A DNA stretch of 64,000 nucleotides from Daejeonella sp. JGW-45 (lineage in GTDB: Bacteria; Bacteroidota; Bacteroidia; Sphingobacteriales; Sphingobacteriaceae): assembly GCF_029360805.1 (NCBI RefSeq), contig NZ_JARKNC010000006.1:2199-66198 (forward strand), written 5' to 3'. Position numbers and translations under genes: made by a program. The notes under the pieces are model-generated. The model was not told the origin of the DNA, ran no database searches, and saw nothing but the letters and a program-made list of their open reading frames with translations. Shown piece by piece: positions 1 to 16,827 of this stretch. The first letter of the stretch is position 1. The number at the start of each line of letters is the position of its first letter.

Positions 1-468
1 CCTTGCATCACCAACATTTACCGGTACCGTATCTGGTATCACCGCCACAATGGTTGGCTTAGGTAATGTGAACAATACGGCTGATGCTGATAAACCGATC
101 AGCTCAGCTACTCAAACAGCACTTGACGGGAAAGCTGCCAGTGCAGATCTTGCTTTAAAAGCACCTCTTGCATCTCCAACATTCACCGGAACTGTTTCCG
201 GTATCACTGCGGGAATGGTTGGTTTAGGCAACGTGAACAATACTGCTGATGCCGATAAGCCGATCAGCTCAGCTACTCAAACAGCCCTTGATGGAAAGGC
301 TGCTAGTGCAGATCTTGCTTTAAAGGCACCTCTTGCTTCACCAACATTTACCGGAACTGTTTCCGGTATCACTGCAGGAATGGTTGGACTAGGTAATGTT
401 AACAATACGGCTGATGCAGATAAACCAATTAGCTCAGCAACTCAAACTGCGCTTGATGGGAAAGCTAC
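1..468 (+). repeat. 165 bp in-frame tandem repeat
   Basis: The ATGGTTGG segment recurs at 50, 215 and 380, giving an exact 165 bp (55-codon) period. The third unit diverges after about base 468, and bases 1-49 look like the tail of a further unit upstream. Differences between units are mostly synonymous, so the repeat is maintained at protein level. Such arrays can change copy number by recombination. Confidence 0.9.
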
Positions 469-1858
469 TACAGCTGCTTTAGCATTAAAGGCTGACCAGA
501 GTTCAGTTGATCTGAAAGCCCCTCTTGCATCTCCAACCTTTACCGGGACGGTTACAGCTCCAACCTTTGTTGGAGCCCTGAGCGGAAATGCAACCACTGC
601 AACTACAGCAGGATCCGTTACCACCAATGCGAACTTAACTGGTCCGATCACTTCAGTTGGGAACGCAACAAGTATCAATTCCCAAACAGGAACGGGTAAT
701 ACATTTGTAATGAATACTTCACCAACACTGGTTACACCAAACATCGGCGCCGCCACAGGAACAAGCCTTACTGCCTCAGGGAATGTAAGCGGTTCGGTTG
801 TAGTGTCTACAGTTTCTACAGGTACTGCACCATTTACCGTGACTTCTACAACACCGGTAGCTAATCTAAGCATTGGCGGAAATGCAGCTACTGCAACTAC
901 AGCAGGATCTGTAACCACCAACGCCAACCTGACCGGCCCTGTTACTTCAGTAGGAAATGCGACATCAATTGCTAATGGTGCGATCAGCAATGCTATGCTT
1001 GCCAATGCAGCAGTAGGAAACTTATCTGGAACAAACACCGGCGACCAGACGGCAACTACTGTCGCTAACGTACCAGCAGGCAACATTGCAGCGACTACAG
1101 TTCAGGCAGCAATTAATGAGCTGGATACAGAAAAAGCCAATCTGGCCTCACCGACTTTCACCGGTACCGTAACATTGCCAACCGGAACGATCGCTGTTAC
1201 CCAGTCTGCAAACAATAACTCTACAGCAATTGCTACTACCGCTTACGCTGACGCGCAGGCAGTAGCAGCCAAGCTTGTTAACGGATCAACCGCAGGTGAT
1301 ACACCATATTGGAACGGTACTGCCTGGGTCGCAGGAGGGAACATCTTTAATAATAACGGAAATGTGGGTATAGGGATGGATCCTGTTGGTGCGCAGAAAT
1401 TACAGGTTAATGGAAAAGTAAAATCAAACGGTATCAATGAAACGTCTGATGAGCGCTGGAAAACGGATATTAAAGCCGTTGAAAATGCCCTTCCAAAGGT
1501 ATTGGCTATGAGAGGGGTGAACTATAACTGGAGAACCGGGGAATTTCCAGAAAAGAATTTCGCATCAGGCCGCCAGCTTGGCCTGATCGCCCAAGAGGTC
1601 GAGAAAGTTATTCCGGAAGTTGTGGATACCGATGATAAAGGCTTCAAATCTGTTGAATACTCTAAACTGGTGGCGCTCTTACTTGAAGCTATCAAAGATC
1701 AGCAGAAGCTGATCAGCAAACAGGAAGCAGATATTGCCAGCCTGAAATCTGACAGTCAGCGTGTCGAAAAAATGGAAGCGGAACTTGTTAAGGTTCAAAC
1801 GCTGCTTCAAAACTTGTTAAAAGGTAATGTATCTGCGCAGCATGGAAATGTTAACTAA
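2..1858 (+). CDS. Fibre-like repeat protein with C-terminal S74 chaperone domain (5' end missing)
   Basis: The reading frame is already open at the window edge, so the N-terminus is missing. The visible part is Ala/Gly/Thr/Asn-rich beta-strand repeat of the kind found in phage tail fibres and Bacteroidota surface fibres. It opens with three near-identical 55-residue units (KAPLASPTFTGTV followed by MVGLGNVNNTADADKPIS) and continues with GNATTATTAG-type repeats. From about base 1435 comes a Peptidase_S74 / endosialidase-type intramolecular chaperone: the SDERWK motif carries the Ser and Lys of the self-cleavage dyad, followed by GLIAQEVEKVIPEVV and YSKLVALLLEAI, then a coiled coil from about base 1690. 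In this family the domain helps fibres trimerise and then cleaves itself off; that role is inferred here. It heads a run of secreted repeat proteins on the same strand. No phage structural genes are visible, so I favour a cell-surface fibre over a prophage tail protein. Confidence 0.85.
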   Translation, partial: LASPTFTGTVSGITATMVGLGNVNNTADADKPISSATQTALDGKAASADLALKAPLASPTFTGTVSGITAGMVGLGNVNNTADADKPISSATQTALDGKAASADLALKAPLASPTFTGTVSGITAGMVGLGNVNNTADADKPISSATQTALDGKATTAALALKADQSSVDLKAPLASPTFTGTVTAPTFVGALSGNATTATTAGSVTTNANLTGPITSVGNATSINSQTGTGNTFVMNTSPTLVTPNIGAATGTSLTASGNVSGSVVVSTVSTGTAPFTVTSTTPVANLSIGGNAATATTAGSVTTNANLTGPVTSVGNATSIANGAISNAMLANAAVGNLSGTNTGDQTATTVANVPAGNIAATTVQAAINELDTEKANLASPTFTGTVTLPTGTIAVTQSANNNSTAIATTAYADAQAVAAKLVNGSTAGDTPYWNGTAWVAGGNIFNNNGNVGIGMDPVGAQKLQVNGKVKSNGINETSDERWKTDIKAVENALPKVLAMRGVNYNWRTGEFPEKNFASGRQLGLIAQEVEKVIPEVVDTDDKGFKSVEYSKLVALLLEAIKDQQKLISKQEADIASLKSDSQRVEKMEAELVKVQTLLQNLLKGNVSAQHGNVN

Positions 1859-4004
1859 TTCATGGCCGGCAAGACGGCGCATTTCTAGTCCGGCTACGCT
1901 GGTTCTTTTTTGTGGGCTTATTCTCTGTTCGTTGTCAGCTTCCGCTGCTGAATATTTTTCAAGGAGTACGGGGTCTTTCACTACAGGTACCCGCTGGTCG
2001 ACCCAGCGAACAGGAGGTACTGTTGTTGCTTTTCCAGGCAGTACGCATACCTATACTATTCAATCGGGACACAACATATCGATCACTGCGGCGACGGCGA
2101 CTGCCGGAATCACAATAGAAGCCGGAGGTACATTAACGGCAACTACGTTCGGGCTTACGATAACCGGGAGCTGGGCCAATAATGGCGGGACATTTGACGA
2201 TGGGACTACTGCTACCGTAACATTTTCAGGTGTCTCATCGATCAACGGAACAACGAATCCGCAGAATTTTCAGAATGTTACCGTTGCCAGCGGAGCGTCA
2301 TTAACTATCAATTCGCCGGTTGTACTTGCTGGTAACTTTGCGTTTGCAGCAACCGCAGCCAACATTGTTGTTACTATTGCCGGTACTAATTCCCTATCTG
2401 TTACAGGGACATGGTCTATGCCACGGCCAAGCGCGGGCTTCACGTCGACTATCGCAGTCGGCGCGGGAACGCTATCTGTAACAGGTACGTTCACGATGTC
2501 AGCCACTGTGACTACAAGAAATAATATAATGACCATCTCTACCGGTACGGTCAATCTGGGGGCTCTAACCACCGGCACTACCGGTTGTCTGTTTACGTTT
2601 ACCGGTGCAGGTACTTTAAACATATCGGGTACGCTTTCCGGAGGGCCTCCCGCTCTTACCCAATCTACGGGGACGGTTAATTTTACCGGAGCCTCCGCAC
2701 AGACCGTCTGGAATGAAACTTTTTATAACCTGGGTTTTTCAGGTGCGGGAACGAAGACCATAGCAACTGGCTCCACTGCAATCGTCCAGGGTAACTGGAC
2801 CGTAAATAGTCCAACGACCATGACCACGACAGCGGCTGCCAACGTTACCGGGGATATCACAGGATCCGGCAACATCACCATGGGATCAGGCACAATAAAC
2901 ATACAAGGCGACTGGACAAACAGCGGTACGTTTACACGAGGCACCGGGACAGTTAACTACAATGGGAGCGGCGCTCAGAGCGTGGCAGGTCTTTCTTATA
3001 ATAACCTGCAGGTAACCGTGGGCGGGACAAAAACACTTGCGGCGAACACTACGGTCAACAACATATTGACGGTTTCCACACCGGCGACTTTCGATCTCGG
3101 TACCTTTACCGTTACGTTGCCGCTTACAGGAACTCCTTTGGTAATTACGGGTAGCCTTGCAGGGACGGGAAAGATGCTCTTTTCAGGAGGTAGCGGGCAA
3201 AATGTGCCCGGGACAAGCTATTACGATCTGGAGTTCTCAGGCACGGGAACAAAAACCATCGCGGCGGGAACAACGATTACAGTGGGCAACAACTGGACCG
3301 CTGGCAGTGCAACAACAATGACTACCACTGCAGCGGCTAACGTTAACGGGAACATCAGTGGTGGAGGTGCCATTACGATGGGATCGGGAACGATAACCCT
3401 GGGAGGGGCCTGGAGCAATAACGGTCCCTTTACGCGAGGGACGGGCACCGTTATATACAACGGTGGTGTACAGGACATCGCCGGCCTGACCTATAATAAT
3501 CTCCAGGTTTCGAATGCTGGAATAAAAACTCTGGCAGCCAATACGACTGTAGCGGCAATCCTCACTGTCAATGCGTCCTCAGAACTTAATCTTGCCGACA
3601 AAGTTTTAACATTGTCGGCCACAGGAACACCATTTGTTAATAATGGAACGGTTAATACGGCTACCTCAACCGTTATATATGGGGGCACTACACCAACTAT
3701 CGCGCTGTTAAACTATTTTAACTTAACCGGGTCTGCAGGTGGCCCTAAGATTTTTCCGGCAGGTACCATCGGCATAGCCGGGGCATTTACCCCTTCCGGC
3801 GGAACATATTCTGTCGATAATGCAAATATTGTAAACTTCAACGGCACAGGTCCTACGCAAACCATTCCAGCCTTTATGTTTAAAAAGATGATAATCAGTG
3901 GTTCAGGTCAAAAAATAATTGCAACAACTGTAGACGTAAACCAGGTGGATATAGAAGATGGTCCGACTATGGACATAACAACCGGCCAGCTCAATGTTAA
4001 CTAA
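1848..4004 (+). CDS. Secreted beta-strand repeat surface protein (paralogue 1)
   Basis: No named family is recognised with certainty. The start codon at 1848 gives a signal peptide (Arg-rich n-region, hydrophobic LVLFCGLILCSLSASA, cleavage before AEYF); 1827 and 1842 are possible alternatives. All three starts overlap the end of the preceding fibre gene, suggesting translational coupling. The mature protein is almost entirely Thr/Gly/Asn/Val-rich short repeats. About six copies of a module carry a GTVNYNGSGAQ-type strand followed by YYNL- or YDLEFS-type and GTKTLAANTTV motifs, typical of parallel beta-helix (pectin-lyase-like) folds. It is paralogous to the next two genes. No type IX C-terminal sorting domain is visible. 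An exported adhesin or matrix role is inferred from composition and context. Confidence 0.75.
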   Translation: MLTNSWPARRRISSPATLVLFCGLILCSLSASAAEYFSRSTGSFTTGTRWSTQRTGGTVVAFPGSTHTYTIQSGHNISITAATATAGITIEAGGTLTATTFGLTITGSWANNGGTFDDGTTATVTFSGVSSINGTTNPQNFQNVTVASGASLTINSPVVLAGNFAFAATAANIVVTIAGTNSLSVTGTWSMPRPSAGFTSTIAVGAGTLSVTGTFTMSATVTTRNNIMTISTGTVNLGALTTGTTGCLFTFTGAGTLNISGTLSGGPPALTQSTGTVNFTGASAQTVWNETFYNLGFSGAGTKTIATGSTAIVQGNWTVNSPTTMTTTAAANVTGDITGSGNITMGSGTINIQGDWTNSGTFTRGTGTVNYNGSGAQSVAGLSYNNLQVTVGGTKTLAANTTVNNILTVSTPATFDLGTFTVTLPLTGTPLVITGSLAGTGKMLFSGGSGQNVPGTSYYDLEFSGTGTKTIAAGTTITVGNNWTAGSATTMTTTAAANVNGNISGGGAITMGSGTITLGGAWSNNGPFTRGTGTVIYNGGVQDIAGLTYNNLQVSNAGIKTLAANTTVAAILTVNASSELNLADKVLTLSATGTPFVNNGTVNTATSTVIYGGTTPTIALLNYFNLTGSAGGPKIFPAGTIGIAGAFTPSGGTYSVDNANIVNFNGTGPTQTIPAFMFKKMIISGSGQKIIATTVDVNQVDIEDGPTMDITTGQLNVN

Positions 4005-4037
4005 TATAATACTCGTATTAACTAACCTTCAAAGATT

Positions 4038-5957
4038 ATGAATGCTGTTCGTCAATATCAAAAAACATTTGTTAAATGTGCTCTTGGTAAATTCGCTGTA
4101 TGCTTAACCGTGTTTGTGTGTTTATGCTCCGCAGGATTTGCCGCCATCCGTACCTCTACCACAGCCGGAGGTAACTGGAACTCAACCAGCACTTGGAGCG
4201 GGGGAGTGATACCCCTGGCGGGTGATGAAGTAGTTATAGCAACAACAGGAACCAATGCGGTAACAGTTGACGGCATCAGGACTTGTATTAAACTTACTAT
4301 AAACAGTCGCGGAAGACTCGTTATCAGCGGCACAAATATGCTGACCGTGAACGGCGCTGTAAGCATGCCGCGTCCAGGTAATGGATATACCAGCGAATTA
4401 AATGTCAATGGTGGCACATTAAATGCAACCGGTTTGTTTACCATGTCAGGCTCAAGCGGTACCCGCTACGCCACACTTAATATTACAACGGGAACAGCAA
4501 ATCTTGCAGGGCTGACTACAGGCGGGGCGGCATCCAGGATTATCTTTGCCGGCACAGGTGTACTAAACTTATCGGGAACGCTAAGCGGAACAGCGCACAC
4601 ATTCACACCTGGACAGGGAACCGTGAATTTCACCAGTGCGGCAACGCAATCGATCTGGCCGAAGGTGTATTACAACTTAGGCGTTTCGGGGGCTGGTACA
4701 AAAAATCTTTCCACAAGTACTACGGTAAATAATCGTGTACAGGTTGATGGCACTCTGAGCCTGGGCAGCTACACGCTGACTCTTCCCGGGCCTGGCACCC
4801 CGCTTGTTGTAAACGGAACTCTTACTCCCGGCACCGGAACGGTTTCGTTTACCGGGACCTCCGCGCAGACTGTCGCGGGTACAACCTATTATAACCTGGC
4901 TTTTTCCAATGGGGGGACTAAGACAATCCCAACAGCTTCTTCGGCTAATATTTCAAACGATTTTAATGTAGGCAGCAACACATTGTTTGCAGGAACTTCA
5001 ACGGTTATAGTTGGCAGAGATATCACCGGTGCAGGTACTATGACGATGGAGTCGGGAACACTCACTATAAGCCGGAACAATACACGGACCGGAGCTTTTG
5101 TACCCGGTTCCGGAACGGTACATTATGCAGGAGCCGTTGCGCAAACAGTACGTGCGGTCGAGTATTTTAATCTTAAACTATCCTTAACCGGCAATAAATC
5201 GGTTGCGGCTGACCAGGCTATTGTAATCAATAATGATCTGGATGTCAACAGCCAGTTTACCCTTCCTGGTGCAGCGAGCGCAGATATCGCAGGTAGTGTA
5301 ATTGGTACCGGAAATATCATTCTTGAGGATGGCGTGGTATCTCTTGAAGGAGATTGGATGAACGAAGGCAGCCTCGAATCGGGCAGCAGTACAGTTATAT
5401 TTGACGGCAGCGCTGATCAGATCGTAGCCGGCAATGATTATTATAACTTAGAAACCGGGGGAACCGGATCAAAGACCCTGAGTGATGCAGTAATTGTCAG
5501 AAATGTACTGACTGTGGGTGCAAACAGCGAACTGCACCTGGATAGCCAGGACCTAACCTTGTCGGGAGCTGGTACGCCTTTAGTTAATAATGGGCTATTT
5601 TCGCCTTCAGCTTCCACTGTAAATTATACTAATGCAGGACAAACGGAAATAGCAGCTGTAAATTATCATAATCTTAATGCTGCCGGCGGTCCGAGAAAGC
5701 TTGCTGAAGCCGGCACCATCGGAATTTCAGGGACATTTACTTCTGGCGCCGGAGAATACGAGGTGATAAACAGCACTGTGAGCTTTAACGGTGTAAATCA
5801 GACGTTGCCCGAATTTACTTTTTATGACATTGCGCTCGTGGGACCGGGGGTAAAACTGATAAACAGCCAGGTAAATGCCAAAACCATAACAATAGAGAGT
5901 GGCGCCATACTTAACCTGGAATCTGATAGCGGGGGGATGCTAACCATTACGAACTAA
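4038..5957 (+). CDS. Secreted beta-strand repeat surface protein (paralogue 2)
   Basis: This is a 639-residue protein with a signal peptide (hydrophobic VCLTVFVCLCSAGFAA, cleavage before IRTST). The mature N-terminus has the motif TTAGGNWNSTSTWSGG followed by PLAGDEVVI, an opening often seen in G8-like and pectin-lyase-fold extracellular proteins. By my count about six copies of the YYNL / GTKTL beta module follow. It starts 33 bp after paralogue 1, so the two are probably cotranscribed. No enzymatic motif and no canonical type IX sorting domain are seen at the C-terminus, which ends GGMLTITN. Function unknown; a repetitive extracellular structural protein or adhesin is inferred. Confidence 0.75.
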   Translation: MNAVRQYQKTFVKCALGKFAVCLTVFVCLCSAGFAAIRTSTTAGGNWNSTSTWSGGVIPLAGDEVVIATTGTNAVTVDGIRTCIKLTINSRGRLVISGTNMLTVNGAVSMPRPGNGYTSELNVNGGTLNATGLFTMSGSSGTRYATLNITTGTANLAGLTTGGAASRIIFAGTGVLNLSGTLSGTAHTFTPGQGTVNFTSAATQSIWPKVYYNLGVSGAGTKNLSTSTTVNNRVQVDGTLSLGSYTLTLPGPGTPLVVNGTLTPGTGTVSFTGTSAQTVAGTTYYNLAFSNGGTKTIPTASSANISNDFNVGSNTLFAGTSTVIVGRDITGAGTMTMESGTLTISRNNTRTGAFVPGSGTVHYAGAVAQTVRAVEYFNLKLSLTGNKSVAADQAIVINNDLDVNSQFTLPGAASADIAGSVIGTGNIILEDGVVSLEGDWMNEGSLESGSSTVIFDGSADQIVAGNDYYNLETGGTGSKTLSDAVIVRNVLTVGANSELHLDSQDLTLSGAGTPLVNNGLFSPSASTVNYTNAGQTEIAAVNYHNLNAAGGPRKLAEAGTIGISGTFTSGAGEYEVINSTVSFNGVNQTLPEFTFYDIALVGPGVKLINSQVNAKTITIESGAILNLESDSGGMLTITN

Positions 5958-5989
5958 GCTTTCCGCTTGAATCCTTCGTTGTTTTTTAG

Positions 5990-5997
5990 TATATTTG
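5990..5997 (+). promoter_or_regulatory. Possible Bacteroidota -7 element
   Basis: TATATTTG matches TAnnTTTG in the 119 bp gap before the largest beta-repeat gene. A clear TTTG at the usual 19 bp spacing is lacking (a TTG lies about 21 bp upstream), so this is tentative. Confidence 0.35.
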
Positions 5998-6076
5998 ATA
6001 GGCTTTCGCATCCCAGGCGCATACGAATTGCTTACCGGATTTTATTATACCGACACTGCCTGGTGACTTTCGGCAT

Positions 6077-9000
6077 ATGAAAACGATAATACCTCGGTTT
6101 AAGAAAGAACGATGCCAGATTTGCATTGCGCTGCTTTTCCTGGTATCGTTTTTTCGTGCCTCGTCGCTGTCTGCTGCCATTATTACATCAACCGCTGCGG
6201 GGGGTAACTGGAATACTGGTGCGACCTGGGTTGGAGGGAATATCCCGGCTGTAGGCGACCAGGTAGTTATCGCAACGAGCTCCGGCGGATCGGTTACTTT
6301 AATTGCCAATCAGACATGTACGGGCGTAACGATAAATTCCGGAGCGATTTTAAACCTTTCTTCTTTTACGCTTACTGTTAATGGTCCCTGGCAAAATAAT
6401 GGTACGTTTAACGACGGCACCGGAACGGTCACTTTCGGTACCGCTAATGCTGCCATTAATGCCGGCAGCGGGACAGCCAATTTTGAGAATATCATAATTG
6501 CGAGTGGTGCTACAATGAATATCAATACCGATGTCGCCGTGAACGGGAACTTTGATTTCGTGCTGCCTGCAGCCAATAATATCGTAAATATTAACCTGAG
6601 CAATTCCTTATCAGTATCAGGTAACCTGACAATGAACCTTCCCACAGCTACGCGCACCAGTACTATAGCGGTGGGTGCAGGTACATTAACTGTTAGTGGG
6701 CTTTTTAATATGCAGGCACAGGCCACATCGGGCAGGGCCAACGTAATTACTATCTCAACCGGTACTGCTAATCTGAACGGCGGCTACTCGACGGGAACAG
6801 TAGCTCCTACAATAGCGGCTGGCTGTAAGATCACTTTTACCGACGCAGGAATCCTTAACCTCTCGGGAACCCTTACCGGAGGAGCCCCCGCCATCGTCCA
6901 AAGTACAGGAACTGTGAATTTTAAAAGCGCAACAGCCCAGGGAATCTGGTTGGAGACATACTATAACCTTGGTGTTTTTGATGGTACAAAATCCCTCCTC
7001 GGTGCAATCACTGTTCAAAATCAGTTAAATGTTGCATCCGGAACTCTTCAGGCCGGGTCGTTTGCCATGACTCTATCCGGATCTGCCAATGCATTTATAT
7101 GTGCCGGAACATTTAATCCGGGTTCTGCTTTAGTCACTATGAGTGGCGCAGCCGAAACGACTATTCCCGGCACCACATTTAATAATTTAACTGTAACCGG
7201 CGGCAATAAAACAGTTCAAAGCGGTACCATGCTCACTGTAAATGGCAACTGGGCACAGAATACCAGTGTAGTAATGGATGGAACAGCCAATGCCTATGTA
7301 GGCGGTTTGCTGTCAGGATACGGCGCCCTGACAATGGGATCGGGAACGTTGAGCCTGGATTCTTCGTACACGAGCTCGGGTACCTTTACTCCGGGAACAG
7401 GGACGATAAAATATATAGGCAACGGAGGAGCTGTTAAAGTAAACTGGACATATTATAACCTGGAGATCGACGGCAACAGAAGTATTACGGGGGCTGTGAC
7501 AGTTACAAATGTGTTAACAGTGAACAGCGGTAAAACACTCAGCATGGGCACCAGCCCGGTGAACCTGACCGGAGACGGTAACCCCATAGTAAATAATGGG
7601 ACAATCGTCTCCACGAGTGGCGCGCTTGTTTTTGCAGGGACGGGCGCGCAGGTTATCGGATCGGGTACTTACCCCAAAACCACACTGACGGGCGGGTCCA
7701 AGACGATTCCTTCTGGCGCCAATGTTAATATTGCGGGCGCCTTCGCTATCACTGCTCCGCTGACAATGGAAGCAAATTCCATCGCTACCATCACAGGCGC
7801 GGTGACTATGAGTTCTCCATTGATTGTCGAAAACTCATCAACATTCAATGTTAATGGGACATTCGTACCCAATGCTGATGTAACCTATAATGGAAATGCA
7901 TCCGGTACATTTACCGGTGCGGTAAGCGGTAGCGGAGGAACGACGATGTCGACCGGCACTTTGACCTTTCAGTCCACTTTCGCAGGAGGAACATTTGATC
8001 CCGGTACAGGAAGGGTGGTGTACGACGGAACCGCTGCCCAGGCAGTAAGGGTGGGCATAAACTATTATAACCTGGAATTATCGAGTTCAGTATCCAATTC
8101 AATTGCTTCCGGAACGCTGAATATTGCGAATAACCTTATCATCGAATCTGCAACAACCCTTACAACAAGCACTACCCTGAATATAACCAACGATATTACT
8201 GGCACGGGGGCATTTACCGCCGCAGGCTTCGTTAATCTTCAGGGCGACTGGCTGCATACAGGTACGCTTACGCCAGGCACCGGCACAATACATTATAATG
8301 GAACCGACCAGATTGTCAAAAGCCTCAGTTATTATAAGTTGTCTATGACCGGTGGAACTAAAACCATGGATGGTAATATTACCGCCACGAATTTAGTTAC
8401 AATTAATGCCGCCACCATATTGAACATGGCTGGTTTTACACTTGAGCTCCAGGGCGGAACAGTAAATGCCCTGAGCAACCTCGGAACACTTACAGGTAAC
8501 GGTAAGGTTAAGTATGCTGCCGCTGGTGCCCAGACGGTCAATGCTTCAGTTTTTTATGATCTCGAATTCACCGGCGGTGATAAGACAATTGCAACAGGAG
8601 TTACCATAGAGACAACTAATGACTGGATTGTTTCTTCGAACGTTATCATGACGAGTACGCAGAATGTAACCGTGGGCCGGGACCTGATCCACAATACCGG
8701 TGCGTTGATTGACCAGGGTGCAGGGGTCATCCGGATAGGGAGGAACTGGACAGCCAACGGGGGTACATTTGATGCAGCCACCGGAACAGTGATATACGAA
8801 GGCGCCAATCAAACCATTGCACCTTTTAGTTATGCTACGCTTATATGTGATGGTACGGGGATAAAATCTATCACCGGCAATATCATTATCACAGGAGTGC
8901 TCACCATTAATCCCGGCGTTACGTTTGACCGCGATACCTATAATGTTACGCTTTCTTATAATGGCACCCCATTCGTTAATAACGGTACGCTTACCGGCAA

Positions 9001-9853
9001 TGGTAAATTCTTCTATACCGGTACAGGTACACAAAATATAGCGCCAGGCTCTTATTATGACCTTGAGTTCAATACCGGGGCAAAGAATCTTCCGGCTAAT
9101 GAGGCGCTGGAAATACTAAACGACTGGACGATCAGCTCAGTAACAGTATTCGGAGAGAATACAACGGTTTCGGTATCGGGTAATATCAGTGGCGCGGGTG
9201 CATTCACTCTTGGCAATGGCACCCTGAACTTAGCCGGAAGCTGGGATAAAACCGGCACCTTTACTGCTTCTAATACCGGGATATTCCATTACAATGGCGC
9301 TGCTCAAAATATCGCTGCATTGGACTATTACAAATTACAGATCTCCAACCCCGGCGTTAAGTCCCTTGCAGCCAATACAACCGTGAGAGATGTTTTAACG
9401 GTCAACTCGGGCTCAACCCTTGGACTAGGGGCATTTACATTAACTCTTCCCCTGGCGGGAACACCATTTATCAACCAGGGCACCATGCTGCCCGGAACCT
9501 CAACTGTACTCTATACCGCTGCCAGCCAGACCGAGATTGCCCCGGGAAGTTATTATAACCTGACCACAAGCGGCGGCCCCCGCAGCCTGGTAAACGGCGG
9601 AACTTACGAAATCGGAGGGACGTTCACGCCCGGCTCGCCCACTTTTACGAGCGTAACCGGAAGCACGGTAAACTTCAATGGCACCGCTGCCCAGACAATC
9701 CCCGCATTTACATTCCATAAGCTGATACTTAGTGGTGCCAATGATAAATCCGTTCTAACTGCTACCAGTGTAACTGTATTTGATCTTGAAGTGCAGGATA
9801 CGGCAGTACTTAATATTGCCGGTACCGGTGTGATCAACATCACCAAACCTTAG
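6077..9853 (+). CDS. Large secreted beta-strand repeat surface protein (paralogue 3)
   Basis: This is a 1258-residue protein with a signal peptide (hydrophobic CIALLFLVSFFRASSLSAA, cleavage before IITST). The mature N-terminus repeats the paralogue 2 opening: TAAGGNWNTGATWVGG followed by PAVGDQVVIATS. I count about eleven copies of the repeating module (aromatic-Tyr-Asn-Leu strand, a G-x-K-[ST] turn, then a TVxNVLTVNSG-type strand), roughly every 100-110 residues. This suggests growth by internal duplication and a long parallel beta-helix. The protein ends GVINITKP, with no type IX sorting domain or anchor. It lies 119 bp after paralogue 2. Function unknown; an exported filamentous adhesin or scaffold is inferred. 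Confidence 0.75.
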   Translation: MKTIIPRFKKERCQICIALLFLVSFFRASSLSAAIITSTAAGGNWNTGATWVGGNIPAVGDQVVIATSSGGSVTLIANQTCTGVTINSGAILNLSSFTLTVNGPWQNNGTFNDGTGTVTFGTANAAINAGSGTANFENIIIASGATMNINTDVAVNGNFDFVLPAANNIVNINLSNSLSVSGNLTMNLPTATRTSTIAVGAGTLTVSGLFNMQAQATSGRANVITISTGTANLNGGYSTGTVAPTIAAGCKITFTDAGILNLSGTLTGGAPAIVQSTGTVNFKSATAQGIWLETYYNLGVFDGTKSLLGAITVQNQLNVASGTLQAGSFAMTLSGSANAFICAGTFNPGSALVTMSGAAETTIPGTTFNNLTVTGGNKTVQSGTMLTVNGNWAQNTSVVMDGTANAYVGGLLSGYGALTMGSGTLSLDSSYTSSGTFTPGTGTIKYIGNGGAVKVNWTYYNLEIDGNRSITGAVTVTNVLTVNSGKTLSMGTSPVNLTGDGNPIVNNGTIVSTSGALVFAGTGAQVIGSGTYPKTTLTGGSKTIPSGANVNIAGAFAITAPLTMEANSIATITGAVTMSSPLIVENSSTFNVNGTFVPNADVTYNGNASGTFTGAVSGSGGTTMSTGTLTFQSTFAGGTFDPGTGRVVYDGTAAQAVRVGINYYNLELSSSVSNSIASGTLNIANNLIIESATTLTTSTTLNITNDITGTGAFTAAGFVNLQGDWLHTGTLTPGTGTIHYNGTDQIVKSLSYYKLSMTGGTKTMDGNITATNLVTINAATILNMAGFTLELQGGTVNALSNLGTLTGNGKVKYAAAGAQTVNASVFYDLEFTGGDKTIATGVTIETTNDWIVSSNVIMTSTQNVTVGRDLIHNTGALIDQGAGVIRIGRNWTANGGTFDAATGTVIYEGANQTIAPFSYATLICDGTGIKSITGNIIITGVLTINPGVTFDRDTYNVTLSYNGTPFVNNGTLTGNGKFFYTGTGTQNIAPGSYYDLEFNTGAKNLPANEALEILNDWTISSVTVFGENTTVSVSGNISGAGAFTLGNGTLNLAGSWDKTGTFTASNTGIFHYNGAAQNIAALDYYKLQISNPGVKSLAANTTVRDVLTVNSGSTLGLGAFTLTLPLAGTPFINQGTMLPGTSTVLYTAASQTEIAPGSYYNLTTSGGPRSLVNGGTYEIGGTFTPGSPTFTSVTGSTVNFNGTAAQTIPAFTFHKLILSGANDKSVLTATSVTVFDLEVQDTAVLNIAGTGVINITKP

Positions 9854-10175
9854 GAACGACTTCTGGTGTCTATTTAACTGCCTGATTTATTGTTGCTTTC
9901 GTACATCCTGCGTGCAAATCAATTTTTTATAAGGAGTATGATAAAAAACGAAACTATTTTATCTGTTTCAGCGTAAAAAATTGCTTTGAAAGCAAGACTT
10001 TATTGCAGAACTTTAAGGGCCTGAATTAAGAGTGTTTTTTAACATCTTATTAATAAGGACGTTGCCGGAAAATAATATTATTGTATCTTGTTGTTTGCTT
10101 GAAACCTGTTTGTCTGCAATACAGAGGTTTCGTTTGCACAATATTGAAAAGAAAGCTTATTGATCTAAACTTTAC
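9854..10175. other. 322 bp intergenic gap
   Basis: AT-rich spacer with no convincing coding potential. It holds the promoter candidate listed at 10061-10091 and a 12-codon start-to-stop frame (9938-9976) after AAGGAG, which I do not accept as a gene because the spacing to ATG is one base. Confidence 0.6.
10061..10091 (+). promoter_or_regulatory. Candidate Bacteroidota promoter for the CHU_C-sprF pair
   Basis: GTTG at 10061-10064, exactly 19 bp of spacer, then TATCTTGT at 10084-10091. This is close to TTTG-N19-TAnnTTTG with one mismatch in the -33 box and an imperfect -7 box. It lies about 85 bp upstream of the GTG start. Confidence 0.45.
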
Positions 10176-11510
10176 GTGATATCCAAAACCGCTATAAATA
10201 AACTGGTGCATTCCCGCAAGGTTTGGCTTGTCCTGTTTGTCACCTTACCTTGTTTGGCCAAAGCTCAGGCAGTGAACGAGGTCCACATTTTTCGTGATGC
10301 TTCCATATACGCGCATCCTAATTCCAGCACCAACATCTTTTCTAATGTTTCGCAGGGCGGTACCTTTGTATCGTATGATACAGCTCTGATACATTTTTTT
10401 GCACAGATATGGCAGAACCAGCCGGGAAGCCGCTTACCGGATGAGTCACCTCGCGGGATTGACGGCATTGGAGGCATATTCAGGTTCTCAGGACAGTTTT
10501 TCAATCCACAGCAAATCGTATCGGCCGGTTCACAGCCCTATAACGGTTTTCCCAATGTAAGAATTGATAACCCTCTTAATGTAACGGCAACAACCGGTAA
10601 TCTTCATATCAACAATAACCTGGATTTTGTTAATGGCAATCTGATACTGGATGATGTGGACGTAACAGTTGGCCGTAATGGCGGCGGGACGATCACGGGT
10701 TTTAGTGACAGGCGTTTTATTGTGACAGGAACAGGAATAACAGGGGGGAGCCTGATGAGGAGTTTTAGCGGAGCGGCAAATACAGCGACGGCTTATCCGG
10801 TTGGTACTACGCTTACAAGCTATACACCCGCTTCTGTCATCTATCGTGGCATCCCGCAGAATATTAAAATACGAGTGGCCGACGAGGTATATAATAAAAC
10901 TAATTTCCCCGAATATGTATACAAGACCTGGATCGTGGAACGTGATTTTCCGGATGCATCAGGAAGCCTCGATCTTACACTGCAGCATAATTCAGCCGAC
11001 GAGGGTGTCGAATATTTCAGGAACAGGAACGATGCTTATGTGAGCCGATATGATGCGAACCTTACGGGCTTATATGACATCGTAGCCCCTCATGCAACTG
11101 TTACACCGGGAACTATAAGCAGCGGTGCGGCGGTGTTCGATTCGTACATGAATACCAGGCTAAACATCGGAGCCCTTAAAGCCACCGAATATTTTACGAA
11201 ATCGGTGATCAAAAAGCAGGTGGATGAGAATACTCCTGTAAATATGCCGGATGCTATTTCGCCAAATGGCGATGGGTTAAATGACCGGTATGAGATAGTA
11301 AAGCGCTTGCCAACCGACAGGGTACGTTTTGAAGTTTACAGTCGCAACCAGGTATTGGTCTACCAGCACCTGGACTACGATAATTCTTTCGATGGCAACG
11401 GCAATCAGGGCGGTTTCATGGGCGATGTACTTCCTGATGGTATTTATTACTACCTGATCAGTGTAAATGGTGCTAAAGGTATTCCGGGGTATCTGATTAT
11501 TAACAGGTAA
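10176..11510 (+). CDS. Secreted protein with CHU_C / type B type IX sorting domain
   Basis: This is a 444-residue protein starting at GTG; the start is chosen because it gives a complete signal peptide (KVWLVLFVTLPCLAKA, cleavage before QAVNE). The middle is a beta-rich domain without a recognised catalytic motif. The last 90 or so residues form the gliding-motility-associated CHU_C domain: DAISPNGDGLNDRYEI, FEVYSRNQVLVY, then VLPDGIYYYLISVNG. In Bacteroidota this domain directs export by the type IX system (type B signal). The stop codon directly abuts the following PorP/SprF gene, the classical pairing in which the SprF-like partner is needed for secretion or anchoring of the upstream protein. 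A surface structural role is inferred. Confidence 0.85.
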   Translation: MISKTAINKLVHSRKVWLVLFVTLPCLAKAQAVNEVHIFRDASIYAHPNSSTNIFSNVSQGGTFVSYDTALIHFFAQIWQNQPGSRLPDESPRGIDGIGGIFRFSGQFFNPQQIVSAGSQPYNGFPNVRIDNPLNVTATTGNLHINNNLDFVNGNLILDDVDVTVGRNGGGTITGFSDRRFIVTGTGITGGSLMRSFSGAANTATAYPVGTTLTSYTPASVIYRGIPQNIKIRVADEVYNKTNFPEYVYKTWIVERDFPDASGSLDLTLQHNSADEGVEYFRNRNDAYVSRYDANLTGLYDIVAPHATVTPGTISSGAAVFDSYMNTRLNIGALKATEYFTKSVIKKQVDENTPVNMPDAISPNGDGLNDRYEIVKRLPTDRVRFEVYSRNQVLVYQHLDYDNSFDGNGNQGGFMGDVLPDGIYYYLISVNGAKGIPGYLIINR

Positions 11511-12449
11511 ATGCGTATGAAGAAAATAGTTACTCCTCTTACTATTTGTATTTTATTGCTTTCAGCGTTCAGCCTTCAGCTTTCAGCGCAGCAGCTCCCC
11601 CTGTACTCGCAATACATGTTCAATACGCTGGAGATCAATCCGGCGTATGCGGGCTTTAAGGAGTCGATGCAGTTTACCAGTATTTTCCGGAAGCAGTTCA
11701 ACGGCATTAAGGATGCACCCCAGACTGCCTTGCTCTCTTTTGATATGCCCATAGGAACCACTCAGCTGGGTGTGGGGCTAAAACTTGTTGATGATAAGAT
11801 CTCTGTGTCACGCACTACAGGGGCGCAAGGCTCTCTCTCATACCATATAGATGGCGATAATTCCAGGATGTCTTTCGGCCTGCAGGTGGGGGCACTGAAT
11901 TATAAGGCAAATATGGCTGACCTGAACGTGACCCACCCCGGCGACCCCATCTTTGCCCAGGATGTGAACACGCTGGTTGCCAATTTTGGGACCGGGATAT
12001 TCTATAATACCGATAAGTTCTACGCCGGCGTTTCTGTTCCTAACATCGTACGGACCCATTTGCGTGAAACAAATATTGCTCTGAACCATTACGAAGTTAA
12101 GCAAAGCCCTCATTTCTATATCAATGCGGGTATGCTCATCGACCTCAACGATAATTTTATCCTGAAGCCCAGTTTCCTCTTACGCGGGGTGAAGGGTATA
12201 CCTTTAAATTATGACATTAATGCCAATGTCTTTTTCCGTGATCTCTTCTCTATGGGTGTTTCATACCGCAGTCACAGCGCTGTGGTAGGGCTGATGGATG
12301 TACGGGTAATACCGGAGCTAAGGCTTGGATATGCTTATGATTATAATGTGGGAAGACTGAATGCTTTCGCGAAAGGAACGCATGAGATCATATTAAGGTA
12401 TCATATTCCTATTGACAGGGATATATTGATGCCGTCGTACTTGTTTTGA
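11511..12449 (+). CDS. PorP/SprF family type IX secretion outer-membrane protein
   Basis: This is a 312-residue protein, the usual length of the family. A signal peptide precedes the diagnostic mature N-terminus QQLPLYSQYMFNTLEINPAYAG. Beta-barrel-like alternating strands follow to the C-terminus (RYHIPIDRDILMPSYLF, ending in an aromatic residue). PorP/SprF proteins sit in the outer membrane and are linked to attachment or export of cognate type B CTD cargo, here probably the CHU_C protein whose stop codon touches this start. ATG at 11517 is an alternative start. The signal-peptide segment is encoded by tandem TTTCAGC-like words that also occur in the intergenic repeat downstream. Confidence 0.92.
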   Translation: MRMKKIVTPLTICILLLSAFSLQLSAQQLPLYSQYMFNTLEINPAYAGFKESMQFTSIFRKQFNGIKDAPQTALLSFDMPIGTTQLGVGLKLVDDKISVSRTTGAQGSLSYHIDGDNSRMSFGLQVGALNYKANMADLNVTHPGDPIFAQDVNTLVANFGTGIFYNTDKFYAGVSVPNIVRTHLRETNIALNHYEVKQSPHFYINAGMLIDLNDNFILKPSFLLRGVKGIPLNYDINANVFFRDLFSMGVSYRSHSAVVGLMDVRVIPELRLGYAYDYNVGRLNAFAKGTHEIILRYHIPIDRDILMPSYLF

Positions 12450-12634
12450 GAGAAACGGAAAACTGAAAACTGAAAACTGAAAACGGAAAACGGAAAAGTG
12501 GAAAGTGGAAACGGAACTGAAGGTAAGAGGGAAGTAAAAAAGGAAAAGAGAAAACAAAAGGATAAAAAAACGAAAATATAGGCGTCGGGGTCAAAGCTTT
12601 CAGCTTTCAGCTTTCCGCCTTCAGCAAAAAAGAT
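12450..12634. repeat. Short-word inverted repeat array (GAAAACTG / CTTTCAGC)
   Basis: The left arm has tandem GAAAACTGAAAAC and GAAAACGG words (about 12452-12520) and the right arm has tandem CTTTCAGC words (about 12595-12624). The arms are roughly complementary (GAAAnCTG against CAGCTTTC). The whole gap between the sprF-like gene and the next fibre gene is this low-complexity sequence. It belongs to the same class as the other word-array elements in the window. Confidence 0.7.
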
Positions 12635-14278
12635 ATGCGCAAACTATACTCATCATCGTCCAGTTACAGACTGCTTCTCGCCGGGATCCTATCCGTGCTT
12701 ATAGGAAGCGCTAACGCACAAATAAAGATCGGTACTAATGGTGCTACTATAGCACCTTCGTCCCTGCTTGAGCTGGAAAGTGCTAATCAGGGCTTGTTAT
12801 TGCCGCGTATGGCGGATACGGTAGCAATAAACGCGTTAAATCCACCCAATGGTATGCTGATCTATCTTACCAAAACCCCGGCGGTAGGCCTGTATGTAAG
12901 GAAAGTTACCGGCTGGGAATTCCTTACCGGATCGCTTGGGGGAAATGGTAATTTCAGTTCCTTAACTGTGTCGGGCGCCGTAACTGCAGGCAGCTTCAGC
13001 GGGCCGTTAACAGGGAATGCAACCTCCGCAACTACGGCTTTGACAGCAACAAATTCACTCAATTCGGCGGTCACAAATGATGTTTCAACTACAGCAGTTA
13101 CTTATCCGACTTTTGTTACGATGAGTCCCGGTAATTCCGCCCTGCGTACCAGCAATACCAATTTAAGTTATGTGCCGGGCACAGGGGTACTAACCGCTCT
13201 TGGATTCAGTGGTCCTTTGACTGGAAATGTAACCGGAACCGCGACCCGGGCAATTGATGCCGTGAATTCGGCTAATAGTGCCATTTCAAATAATATTACT
13301 GCTAATGCATTGCACTACCCAACATTTGTCTCCGGAACGACCGGAAATCTGCCCCATCAGACCAGCAGCCCTAATCTTACTTTTAACCCGAATACGGGAA
13401 TATTAAGTGCTACTACGTTTAACGGCAACTTAACCGGTAATTCGACCACGGCTACAAATGCCACTACAACGACCATTACTGATGACATTATCAGCACCGC
13501 CGTCACTTATCCTACATTTGTCACAAATACTTCCGGCAATTGGGGACAAAGAACTGCGGGCACCCGGCTCAGCTTTGTTCCTGCAACAGGCATTTTAACA
13601 GCTTCGGGCTTTACATCGACAGTGCCAACGGGCACAGCGCCGTTTGTGGTTGCTTCATCCAGTACTGTAGCTAACCTGACTTCAACAAACACAGTTAATA
13701 CAGGAATAACTAATGACCTGGGTACGAACTCAGCAGTCTATCCAACGTTTGTGAACGGGACAACAGGCTTTCTCGACCAAAGGGTGTCTAATTCGAGGTT
13801 AAGTTTTATTCCTCTGACCGGGCAGCTTAGCGCTACTAGCTATACTGGCCTCTGGAACGGCTCAGTTATCGCCGGACAATATGGAGGTACCGGAGTTAAT
13901 AATTTAGGACGTACTATAACACTGGGCGGTAATCTGACAACTTTCGGTGCTAATAATATAACACTTCGAACAACTGGTTTGACGGATGTAACTCTGCCAA
14001 CAGGTGGTACACTTGTGGCAGCACTTTCGGCCAGCGGTACTGTAGCTTTTAATGCAACTCCAGCCGGTCAAACCAGTGATGGTCTATCTACGATCACAGT
14101 AAATGGTGCCGTTGATGGGGATGTGGTCAGTATCGGAGTGCCATTTGCAACCATGGCTGCAGGAGGAACTTATGTGGCCTGGGTTAGTGCACCGAATACG
14201 GTGAGCATCCGTTTTAGCAATACGACGGCTGGCCCCCTGACTCCATCAGCAGTATTTAATGTGAAAGTCTTTAAATAA
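12635..14278 (+). CDS. Secreted fibre-like beta-repeat protein
   Basis: This is a 547-residue protein with a signal peptide (LLLAGILSVLIGSANA, cleavage before QIKIG). The mature start IKIGTNGATIAPSSLLELES followed by GLLLPRM is the common head of Bacteroidota tail-fibre-like surface proteins. Repeats of about 80 residues follow, with motifs such as NDVSTTAVTYPTFV, LSYVPGTGVLTA and GFSGPLTGNVTG, resembling the fibre gene at the window start. The C-terminus (SAVFNVKVFK) differs from that protein and carries no S74 chaperone. It lies downstream of the CHU_C-sprF pair on the same strand but is separated by a repeat-rich gap. An exported fibre or adhesin role is inferred; no enzyme motif is seen. 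Confidence 0.75.
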   Translation: MRKLYSSSSSYRLLLAGILSVLIGSANAQIKIGTNGATIAPSSLLELESANQGLLLPRMADTVAINALNPPNGMLIYLTKTPAVGLYVRKVTGWEFLTGSLGGNGNFSSLTVSGAVTAGSFSGPLTGNATSATTALTATNSLNSAVTNDVSTTAVTYPTFVTMSPGNSALRTSNTNLSYVPGTGVLTALGFSGPLTGNVTGTATRAIDAVNSANSAISNNITANALHYPTFVSGTTGNLPHQTSSPNLTFNPNTGILSATTFNGNLTGNSTTATNATTTTITDDIISTAVTYPTFVTNTSGNWGQRTAGTRLSFVPATGILTASGFTSTVPTGTAPFVVASSSTVANLTSTNTVNTGITNDLGTNSAVYPTFVNGTTGFLDQRVSNSRLSFIPLTGQLSATSYTGLWNGSVIAGQYGGTGVNNLGRTITLGGNLTTFGANNITLRTTGLTDVTLPTGGTLVAALSASGTVAFNATPAGQTSDGLSTITVNGAVDGDVVSIGVPFATMAAGGTYVAWVSAPNTVSIRFSNTTAGPLTPSAVFNVKVFK

Positions 14279-14361
14279 GAACCACCTATGTATAGAAGAC
14301 TAAGTTCTTAACCGTGTGGTACGTTTCCACTTACAACTATAACGTACAACATAAAACTCCC

Positions 14362-14952
14362 TTACCTTCCCGTTATCTCCGCGATCCGGTTCCTCTCCGT
14401 CTGCAGCTCCCTGGCCAGTTTTTTCTCTTTGTCATTGGCAGAGATCTTATATTTTTGAAACTCCTCACTAAGTTCATTGAACAGGCTTGTGCGATAACGT
14501 GCTTCGGTGAGCGCTGACTTGTTGCGGTAGATGGTAAACGTTAAAGCTGCCGCGAGCATTAATACAAGTCCCCACATCAGCAGGTTATAGGTGCCTTTTT
14601 CCATCGGGATACCCAGCAGGCTAACCTGGTTTACACTGGCTCTTGATTCCTCGAGTTCCCGGTGAAGAGAATCGAGCTCAGCTTTCGATTGAGTAACCGA
14701 TTGTGCGCTGCCGGCGATCTTCGCGTTGGCTTCATTCTTTAATTGTTTTTCCCGGGCGAGCGTATCCAGGATGTTTCTCCAGAACAGGTCCAGCTTTTCT
14801 TTCCGGATCTCTTTGAATCCCTGGTATGAACCCGATTTTACAACCACGTCCTGGTATTGCTGGCTTAAGGTAGTTCCGGGTGTCTGGGCTTGAAGGTCTA
14901 GTGATGTATATATAATAAGGAGTAGGAGGAGGATAGGTTTTAGTTTCGGCAT
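14362..14952 (-). CDS. Conserved exported coiled-coil membrane protein of unknown function
   Basis: This is a 196-residue protein with a signal peptide (ILLLLLIIYTSLDLQA, cleavage before QTPG). It then has the stretch TLSQQYQDVVVKSGSYQGFK, a Lys/Glu-rich coiled coil (about residues 50-105), one transmembrane helix (LLMWGLVLMLAAALTFTIY, about 125-145) and a second charged coiled coil to the C-terminus. From memory, proteins of this architecture are widespread in Bacteroidota and are often labelled tRNA (guanine-N1)-methyltransferase. Nothing here resembles the TrmD fold, so I reject that name. It is convergent with the upstream fibre gene and followed on its 5' side by the long gene-free region. 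An envelope role is inferred only from topology. Confidence 0.75.
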   Translation of the reverse strand: MPKLKPILLLLLIIYTSLDLQAQTPGTTLSQQYQDVVVKSGSYQGFKEIRKEKLDLFWRNILDTLAREKQLKNEANAKIAGSAQSVTQSKAELDSLHRELEESRASVNQVSLLGIPMEKGTYNLLMWGLVLMLAAALTFTIYRNKSALTEARYRTSLFNELSEEFQKYKISANDKEKKLARELQTERNRIAEITGR

Positions 14953-16421: not shown

Positions 16422-16827
16422 TGATCAAGCCGGGGAGAATAAGGGCCTCTTCCCCGATTAAGTCGGGGATCTCGTGTTGGCACGCGGCCCCAGCCGCAGG
16501 TGCCCGGAAGCCTGTTAAGTTGTGCAAGATGCTGCAAACCGGATCACAGCTGCACGGGGTTTGAACCCAGGTACATTAAAATACCTAGCCAGGCATATGC
16601 TGCGCATGCCTGTAGGGAGACCCCTGATCGAGCCAGGGGAGAATAAGGGCCTCTTCCCCGATTAAGTCGGGGATCTCGTGTGGCACGCGGCCCCAGCCGC
16701 AGGTGCCCGGAAGCCTGTTAAGTTGTGCAAGATGCTGCAACCGGATCACCGCTGCACGGGGTTTGAACCCAGGTACATTAAAATACCCAGCCAGGCATAT
16801 GCTGTGCATGCCTGTGGGGAGACACCC
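16422..16827 (+). repeat. Tandem direct duplication, about 203 bp per copy
   Basis: The segment beginning TGATCAAGCC at 16422 recurs as TGATCGAGCC at 16625. The copies share the hairpin CCCGATTAAGTCGGG, the self-complementary GCGGCCCCAGCCGC, AGGTGCCCGGAAGCCTG and GGCATATGCTGYGCATGCC, with few substitutions. A further CCCGACTTAATTGGGG at about 16828, in inverted orientation, follows the second copy. Open frames inside are only translations of the repeat. It may be a non-coding mobile or structured repeat family. Confidence 0.85.

Follow-up and report, generated by a model that had tools for sequence, protein, structure and literature searches.

The phage-type fibre genes of Daejeonella sp. JGW-45 lie in an island that, read from its sequence, is built of two separable modules in tandem, each of which may display fibres at the cell surface: an adaptor carrying a type IX secretion system (T9SS) C-terminal domain (CTD) would be held by a PorP-like outer-membrane protein, and fibres that have no CTD would attach to it through their N-terminal domain. 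We give this reading a probability of about 0.55.

Two modules at a ribosomal protein locus

The window, the whole stretch of 64,000 nucleotides that we analysed, opens with seven genes in one direction (positions 2–14278; Table 1), and this cluster, with its S74, CHU_C and PorP_SprF domains, is as originally predicted. It forms part of a larger island of at least 26 kb, spread over two contig ends (C2 and C7), between which we infer an unsequenced join; a further gap of 145 N (C7:2054–2198) immediately precedes the window. In Daejeonella (Sphingobacteriaceae), the island is flanked by rpsJ and rplC, with fusA, rpsJ and rplC-rplD as its neighbours. Just upstream of the start of the giant S74 fibre, we found a second CHU_C and PorP pair together with a 254 aa fibre, and the N-terminal domain of the 547 aa protein at the end of the cluster recurs in both the 254 aa and the S74 fibres; the genes therefore make up a two-module island rather than a 14 kb unit. 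Each module consists of a T9SS adaptor of about 440 residues, its own PorP/SprF protein and one or two CTD-less fibres, the fibres of both modules having this N-terminal domain in common. The last genes of module I are those of the S74 fibre and the beta-helix paralogues, and module II, inside the window, terminates in the 547-residue fibre (E547).

Table 1 Features of the island within the window, with the basis of each assignment
Feature	Position	Strand	Basis
Giant S74 fibre, C-terminal 618 residues	2..1858	+	Pfam; contig-end comparison; PHROGs tail fibre / long tail fibre distal subunit
Peptidase_S74 domain with SDERWK (SDxxxK) self-cleavage motif	1445..1624	+	Pfam 62.1 bits, above cut-off; alignment to 6f45 and 7dc3
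Paralogue A, 718 aa	1848..4004	+	Signal-peptide-like N-terminus (by eye)
Conserved C-terminal element of A (last 85 aa, QTIPAFMF)	3747..4001	+	Same element in B (5700–5954) and C (9596–9850)
Paralogue B, 639 aa	4038..5957	+	N-terminal G8 match under cut-off; AlphaFold2 model
Paralogue C, 1258 aa	6077..9853	+	Orthologue in G006, 68% identical
Module II adaptor, 444 aa, exported; adaptor domain and type B T9SS CTD	10176..11510	+	CHU_C, TIGR04131, adaptor profile
CHU_C type B sorting domain of module II adaptor	11241..11483	+	Pfam 59.3 bits, cut-off 27
PorP/SprF-family outer-membrane shuttle, 312 aa	11511..12449	+	PorP_SprF 251 bits, above Pfam cut-off
Module II fibre, 547 aa, CTD-less, variable tip	12635..14278	+	ORF; N-domain comparison
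Shared N-terminal fibre domain (LLELES..GLLLPR)	12725..12949	+	Profile comparison

Among congeners, the site between rpsJ and rplC holds neither module, module I, module II or both. Module II occurs alone in three relatives (G001, G008, G010), and module I, with its S74 fibre and beta-helix protein, occurs alone in G009; G014 was set apart from this comparison by a completeness filter, and G007 from the fusA tree. Across 12 Daejeonella genomes, the order adaptor, PorP, N-domain fibre was kept in 16 of 17 adaptor loci, and G011 has an adaptor with no adjoining PorP or fibre. In G006, G010 and G019, module II is followed by a protein of 1195–1199 aa with a T9SS-like end (by eye) and by two small proteins. 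The original prediction joined all the genes into one surface structure, in which the CHU_C–SprF pair of the window anchored the S74 fibre, and proposed conservation as a unit in relatives as a check, with independent occurrence of the genes there counting against it. Such independence is seen in part: since each module is found without the other, a single structure is not supported, and an assembly from all genes of the cluster was dropped; the S74 fibre also has its own CHU_C and PorP genes upstream. The underlying idea of CTD-less fibres anchored by a CTD protein emerged strengthened, though for each module on its own.

The module II adaptor combines the features of a type B cargo, namely a CHU_C domain, a PorP/SprF gene directly downstream and SprA in the genome (SprA_N 528.5 bits, a single 2,362 aa frame), SprA serving as our sole marker of the T9SS translocon. 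Against NCBIfam TIGR04131, it scored 30.4 bits, under the cut-off of 35, and its upstream paralogue in module I scored 37.9 bits. The adjoining CHU_C cargo and PorP/SprF genes, with SprA in the same genome, are reminiscent of SprB–SprF, Fjoh_3952–Fjoh_3951 and PG1035–PorP. In published systems, type B cargo are described as anchored by their shuttle and as remaining bound to PorP-like proteins (PMC9143113, PMC12618676), which supports the surface location foreseen for the CHU_C/PorP pair. Unlike known type B cargo, the adaptor is short and paired with separate CTD-less fibre genes, and its homologues outside the genus carry a type A signal. Gliding SprF is described as having a Cys-x-Cys tail (PMC12635249), which neither PorP C-tail here contains (they end ..LMPSYLF and ..LSPRYF). 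An AlphaFold2 model of the adaptor from 11 sequences was poor (pLDDT 37.9) and was set aside. The adaptor domain may belong to a broader Bacteroidota surface domain.

Fibres and beta-helix proteins

The S74 domain of the first gene was recognised correctly in the original prediction, with one correction: the 618 aa protein is the C-terminal fragment of a fibre that runs to 3,489 residues or more, with 43 TFTGT modules visible, and within which lie two N gaps and the unsequenced contig join. Contig C7 opens inside the same repeat, and contig C2 ends with the start of the fibre (L013:8269), behind the second CHU_C and PorP pair. The fragment comprises five TFTGT repeat modules, a stalk, the S74 chaperone and a coiled coil. 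The giant-fibre repeats have matches in 970 phage records and match PHROGs tail families, and the S74 end matches phage S16 gp37 (6f45, E 8e-9) and MYRF. An S-D-x-R-W-K motif is present in all four related fibre ends, in line with the SDxxxK motif described for S74 fibres (PMC10769870) and the Ser-Lys dyad (PMC8326128). These similarities support the predicted S74-assisted trimerisation of the fibre.

The N-domain common to the fibres is about 75 aa long, and all three copies detected in this genome (G000) at E<=0.001 sit in the island. Module II fibres from seven genomes were 62–98% identical over their first 100 aa and 12–55% over their last 75, the G008 fibre having been omitted from this tip comparison as its contig ends inside the gene. 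The fibres have signal-peptide-like starts, and no T9SS domain was found in them with Pfam or NCBIfam.

The three paralogues are related as predicted, with identities over best segments of 39% (A–B), 44% and 33% (A–C) and 34% (B–C), and a genome search with the largest, C, found no relative beyond the three. Paralogue A starts at ATG 1848, inside the end of the S74 gene, with an in-frame ATG at 1827 as an alternative. Modelling, performed for paralogue B among the three, gave a parallel beta-helix (AlphaFold2, pLDDT 90.6) whose sole helix of at least four residues spans residues 2–31, the signal-peptide region, with strands elsewhere. The model resembled the adhesins and passengers EtpA, HMW1, Ag43 and TibA (VIA Z about 12–13.6), in scores tied with PL6 lyases (13.6) and an antifreeze protein (12.9). 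Unlike in Ag43, EtpA and HMW1, no translocator domain or partner was found, and identity in the aligned parts was 10–14%. Foldseek of the model in the PDB gave nothing at E<=0.001; in BFVD, 12 matches at E<=0.001 had low TM-scores (0.09–0.35 of the query), and no sign of kinship was drawn from them. As the original prediction stated, the paralogues show no visible T9SS domain, of type A or B, at E<=0.1 in Pfam or NCBIfam; a CTD hidden at their ends was also considered and rejected, there being no family match to these ends (Pfam, NCBIfam) and that of B being modelled as strands of the helix. Nor did Pfam reveal an autotransporter or two-partner domain.

The last 85 aa of the beta-helix proteins share a mean pairwise identity of 53% (range 33–91%), and the QTIPAFMF motif occurs once per protein, 47–52 aa from the end, in 11 of 11. 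One to six copies are found per genome, with six in G006. The genes directly follow the related S74 tips in four of four cases and are absent with other tips (none in three genomes), and they start between 11 bp before and 28 bp past the S74 stop in G000, G003 and G009. We consider the paralogues likely to be accessory adhesins; their association with S74 tips could be mere physical linkage, because one recombination would move both.

Adaptor–fibre pairs outside the genus

Adaptor and fibre genes were also found side by side in Chitinophaga, in UBA1941 and on an Aureispira plasmid. An adaptor profile built from Daejeonella sequences only, with the CTD left out, was compared with 80 outgroup loci, whose 639 ORFs of at least 200 aa include 84 with CHU_C; it matched four ORFs, all of which adjoin N-domain fibres. 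Three of the four (E 1e-57 to 5e-68), from loci selected with the fibre domain, their genomes having entered the set through CHU_C matches, carry a type A signal in place of type B. Among 14 N-domain loci in three outgroup genomes, four have an adaptor-profile neighbour, three another CTD protein and seven neither, indicating that the broad N-domain family does not need the adaptor.

When plasmid proteins were searched with one outgroup adaptor, 10 records matched, the best from Aureispira anguillae; in the remaining nine, the matched part begins at query residue 297 or beyond, towards the signal end. At the one of two match places on the Aureispira plasmid that we examined, a gene annotated as tail fiber, with S74 and the N-domain (E 5e-12), lies 27 bp upstream of the adaptor, which matches the adaptor profile at E 1e-20 (E-values for a three-protein set). 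In the pairs outside the genus, the signal of the adaptor may be of type A. The window adaptor itself, used as query against plasmids, gave two records, matching its CHU_C part only.

These pairs suggest, tentatively and at somewhat less than even odds, a general two-component route in Bacteroidota, whereby signal-less, phage-type trimeric fibres dock by their N-domain on a separate T9SS adaptor, type A and B signals are interchangeable, fibres pass through the T9SS with the adaptor or are caught at its exit, and tips are exchanged in the manner of phage receptor-binding tips. In the literature, T9SS cargo bear a C-terminal signal of their own (PMC12618676). Should fibres be carried by a separate adaptor, a way of export and a predicted partner gene would exist for signal-less "tail fiber domain-containing" proteins of Bacteroidota, a prediction that concerns named species such as Daejeonella lutea DSM 22385 and members of Chitinophaga. 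Searches of the open-licence literature found nothing joining peptidase S74 with type IX secretion, nothing on "tail fiber domain-containing protein" in Bacteroidota, nothing related for SprF with tail fiber, and eCIS only for peptidase S74 with tail fiber in Bacteroidetes.

The route would also provide a Bacteroidota counterpart, with tips exchanged at a fixed site, to the MAT fibres of Bdellovibrio bacteriovorus, which are described as chromosomal, with a signal peptide, a conserved N-domain and C-terminal tips that vary, some of the fibres having an S74 domain with SDxxxK (PMC10769870). The island fibres are likewise chromosomal and phage-fibre-like, with a signal-peptide-like start, a conserved N-domain, variable tips and, in the S74 fibre, the SDxxxK motif; unlike MAT fibres, they are linked to a T9SS adaptor and PorP. 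The N-terminal beta-rich domain of MAT is about 130 aa long, and the conserved N-domain here about 75 aa.

Proposed assembly of the modules and competing readings

In the two-module reading, all parts would be exported by Sec, as their signal-peptide-like starts suggest. The S74 fibre would then trimerise and, judging by homology and the SDxxxK motif, cut off its own chaperone; the adaptor domain would bind the fibre base, as the conserved pairing suggests, and the adaptor would be exported by T9SS, with the fibre moving along with it or after it. PorP would hold the adaptor at the surface, probably static rather than gliding because its tail has no Cys-x-Cys. The variable tips would point outward as adhesins, with the beta-helix paralogues as accessory adhesins of the S74-tipped fibre.

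The rpsJ–rplC site might instead be an adhesin hot spot, gathering independent surface proteins that each work alone while T9SS exports CTD proteins only. The strong differences in content between congeners, the additional proteins after module II in G006, G010 and G019 and the seven outgroup N-domain loci with no adaptor or CHU_C neighbour found all fit this reading, which we nevertheless consider rather unlikely, given the gene order kept in all but one adaptor locus; moreover, a hot spot cannot explain adaptor–fibre pairs that recur in other families, away from this site, and on a plasmid. If the island were what is left of a prophage, tailocin or contractile injection system, its phage-like giant-fibre repeats and S74 end would be accounted for, but this is highly improbable beside fusA, rpsJ and rplC-rplD: the fibres have signal-peptide-like starts, the 254 aa and 547 aa fibres and beta-helix protein B match no phage record, the beta-helix alignment gave no match in a scan of viral contigs, and no head, tube, sheath or lysis gene occurs among the island ORFs (by Pfam in the window and by reading in the C2 part, the two N gaps and contig join being unseen).

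For the beta-helix proteins, the position of their genes raises the thought that a paralogue caps the S74 fibre after chaperone self-cleavage, as gp38 caps gp37 in phage S16. The S74-type C-terminal chaperone (by sequence) with an adhesin-like gene directly downstream is common to both systems, and the gp37 match, the adjoining S74 stops, the unique C-terminal element and the restriction to related tips would all follow. However, gp38 is described as attaching by an N-terminal helical bundle and as having a polyglycine sandwich (PMC6851490), neither of which is in the paralogue B model; here the downstream gene encodes a large parallel beta-helix, in a bacterial surface island and not in a virion, one to six copies per genome fit poorly with one cap per trimer, and linkage alone could yield the same pattern, making a cap unlikely. 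We similarly doubt a periplasmic role, as scaffold or bound to the wall, for the beta-helix paralogues and possibly the fibres too, which would leave the CHU_C proteins alone at the surface. The missing T9SS, autotransporter and two-partner domains speak for this, whereas the S74 fibre, with its 3,489 residues or more, would seem long for the periplasm; the fold, common to surface adhesins but also to lyases and an antifreeze protein, does not show location.

Further observations concern individual genes. G002 has a diverged S74 fibre with no beta-helix gene. On the + strand (1–14300), a Bacteroidetes-type promoter pattern was absent before adaptors and fibres and matched once, at 5967 before paralogue C. 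A search of 60 relatives with a paralogue also returned, within a 3,280 aa frame of G048 (L033), a weak match over 91 residues.

Island layout and contig break

The left 14.3 kb of the window hold seven genes, all in one direction. Among their products, the S74, CHU_C and PorP_SprF matches exceed the curated Pfam cut-offs; Pfam gave no family for beta-helix paralogues A and C or the 547-residue protein, and paralogue B has a G8 match under the cut-off. The S74 domain, which ends what we call the giant fibre, is the sole one found in this genome (G000). The window starts at position 2199 of its contig, C7, directly past 145 N. Since the start of C7 and the end of another contig, C2, both fall within one and the same 55–64 residue repeat, the two very likely join inside the giant-fibre gene, across an unsequenced junction. 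C2 carries, in this sequence, fusA, rpsJ, an MFS-like gene, a pair of small opposite-strand genes, CHU_C (451 aa), PorP (311 aa), a gene for a protein of 254 aa and then the giant-fibre start. Counted from the first CHU_C gene through to that of the 547 aa protein, the visible island measures at least 26 kb; the giant fibre is visible over 1638 + 550 + 683 + 618 = 3,489 residues with 43 TFTGT modules. The island breaks the str/S10 ribosomal gene string between rpsJ and rplC (C2 locus L013:2204-2509 and window 17188). The heptamer array within it is a possible slippage site for expression switching.

Features of the window and of related loci (L-numbers)
Feature	Location	Strand	Remark
S74-ended fibre fragment	2-1858		co-directional with the other six genes
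Beta-helix paralogue A	1848-4004
Beta-helix paralogue B	4038-5957
Beta-helix paralogue C	6077-9853
CHU_C protein	10176-11510		module II adaptor
PorP/SprF protein	11511-12449
Heptamer array	12453-12516		AAACTGA-like, about nine copies, between PorP and 547 aa fibre genes
547 aa repeat protein	12635-14278		module II fibre
196 aa protein	14362-14952	-	coiled-coil look
202 bp unit	16422-16823		two tandem copies (96%), no long ORF, between island and rplC
Second CHU_C protein	about 55349-57874; C7:57556-57810	-	841 aa
FKBP-type PPIase	L055:5109-5825		signal-peptide-like start
Three genes after module II	L055:15571-20400; L040:6584-11435; L056:8551-13391		G006, G010, G019
Diverged S74 fibre	L145:2-2725		G002
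Chitinophaga giant fibres	L064:2476-8599; L069:2271-8585		long KRGFIDLYD repeats

Two modules in Daejeonella

Each of two separable modules combines an adaptor, a type IX secretion (T9SS) protein with a C-terminal signal (CTD), with a PorP/SprF protein and one or two fibres. Module I consists of a CHU453-type adaptor, a PorP311-type protein, the 254 aa fibre and the giant fibre, to which beta-helix genes and an FKBP whose start resembles a signal peptide may be added; module II consists of a CHU444-type adaptor, a PorP312-type protein and a fibre of 401–2338 aa. Searching 251 family genomes at E<=1e-40 yielded 12 adaptor matches, all within one of 23 genera, Daejeonella (the congener G014 lay outside the completeness filter of this search). 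Both modules occur in G000, G003, G006, G018 and G019, module II only in G001, G008 and G010, and the module I type only in G002, G007, G009 and G011; the adaptor was not found in the seven other congeners searched. At 16 of 17 adaptors, G011 being the exception, a PorP and a fibre with a shared N-terminal domain (N-domain) follow, and the adaptor lies near rpsJ or rplC in 11 of the 12 genomes, that of G002 lying elsewhere. The module II adaptor of G019 contains one in-frame TAG. In a fusA tree of 17 genomes, with G007 left out, the 11 adaptor genomes all lie to the same side of a branch with full support.

Among 20 genomes sampled for the rpsJ–rplC interval (G000–G019), the two genes share a contig and strand, 2.4–12 kb apart, in seven, lie on separate contigs in nine, and one or both were not found in four. 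The interval is unbroken and without a module in G004, G005, G012, G014 and G015, where it spans 2.4–5 kb and has other genes inside. A relative of the 196 aa protein adjoins rplC in 13 of the 16 genus genomes, G000 included, whose rplC side was seen, and is present also without the island (G005, G012, G014, G015).

The FKBP-type PPIase, a candidate periplasmic foldase for the fibres, adjoins module I in G003, G006, G009, G018 and G019 and is absent from the island of G000. The three genes after module II encode proteins of about 223–227, 178–186 and 1195–1199 aa; the end of the largest looks T9SS-like by eye. In G002, off the rpsJ and rplC contigs, the diverged S74 fibre precedes a 1,228 aa gene that resembles purL.

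Adaptor–fibre pairing and proposed anchoring

To judge from sequence and gene order, adaptor and fibre belong together. The N-domain was found in three proteins of G000, every one inside the island. We searched for it in three outgroup genomes (G277–G279), reached via loci L101, L064 and L069, themselves found by CHU_C similarity, using a query alignment that included those genomes' own N-domains, and looked at every one of the 20 matches, which fall at 14 loci. An adaptor profile of 11 sequences, from Daejeonella only and with the CTD removed, was run on 639 ORFs (84 of them CHU_C) from 80 outgroup loci; four matched (L168, E 5e-68; L170, 6e-67; L169, 1e-57; L101, 1e-19), each adjoining an N-domain fibre. 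L168–L170 were chosen through the fibre domain, not the adaptor; their adaptors have type A signal ends, over the cut-off of TIGR04183 in 3/3 and of Pfam in 1/3, and the L101 adaptor has a type B end and a PorP alongside. L064, L069 and L166 have a CHU_C neighbour without a profile match, and seven of the 14 N-domain loci have neither an adaptor match nor a CHU_C neighbour. Against the genus N-domain profile, the four adaptor-linked loci score best (best E per locus <=1.4e-16 versus >=1.2e-14 for the other ten, in small databases). One of these outgroup adaptors, used to search plasmids, matched pAUEa of Aureispira anguillae, from another class of the same phylum, where an annotated tail fiber gene with S74 and N-domain lies 27 bp upstream; this adaptor has a type A signal end, and the profile covers positions 69–253 only.

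At L064 and L069, an OmpA gene that looks PorE-like by eye and a CHU_C gene flank the Chitinophaga giant fibres, which are followed by three 205–210 aa look-alikes.

The fibre itself lacks a T9SS signal and would rely on that of the adaptor, crossing together with it or meeting it outside; PMC9251779 describes the T9SS as an exporter of folded and very large proteins. Type B cargo, according to PMC12618676 and PMC9143113, is gathered by a PorP/SprF protein and stays bound, moving or static. In PMC12635249 the tail of gliding SprF bears Cys-x-Cys; neither island PorP carries this motif, which points to static anchoring. In the open-licence papers searched we found no link of S74 or tail fibres to T9SS or SprF.

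Fibre tips and beta-helix paralogues

Repeats of the giant fibre matched 970 phage records (tblastn) and, over as many as 18 stretches, tail families of PHROGs; the 254 aa and 547 aa fibres, which share the N-domain with it, matched no phage records. The end of the giant fibre aligns with phage S16 gp37 (6f45) and MYRF (7dc3), self-cleavage site included, and S-D-x-R-W-K is conserved in four related fibre ends; a Ser-Lys pair is the cleavage dyad of MYRF and endosialidase (PMC8326128). The module I fibre of G002 continues into collagen-like repeats. Compared across seven genomes, module II fibres share 62–98% identity in the 100 residues that come next to the signal and 12–55% in the last 75 (G006 versus G019, 98% at the base and 26% at the tip), so that fibre bases are conserved and tips exchanged.

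Paralogues A, B and C are related to one another, and searching G000 with C found nothing beyond them. Eleven such paralogues are known, spread over four genomes: G000 has three, G003 and G009 one each, and G006 six. Among 60 relatives, at E<=1e-10, none turned up in a further genome, save a weak partial match in G048. Since B and C have G006 orthologues (57% and 68%), the set predates the species. B is modelled as a parallel beta-helix (pLDDT 90.6), parts of which align with EtpA, HMW1, Ag43, TibA and autotransporter passengers in a second-look structure aligner (Z about 12–13.6); PL6 lyases and an antifreeze protein score level with these adhesins. No T9SS family matches A, B or C. A C-terminal element common to all 11 carries the motif Q[TI][IL]Px[FM]xF, which each protein has once, 47–52 residues from its end.

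Beta-helix genes lie directly behind related S74 tips (68–80% identical) in 4/4 genomes; none follows the diverged S74 tip of G002 or the two non-S74 tips of G018 and G019, contig-end fragments that we infer to be part of the module I fibre. The fusA tree places G009 as sister to G019 (86/86) and joins G000 to G018 and G010 (98/97). Within each of these groupings S74 tip and beta-helix genes differ together, a joint change that one recombination event can explain, because the genes touch.
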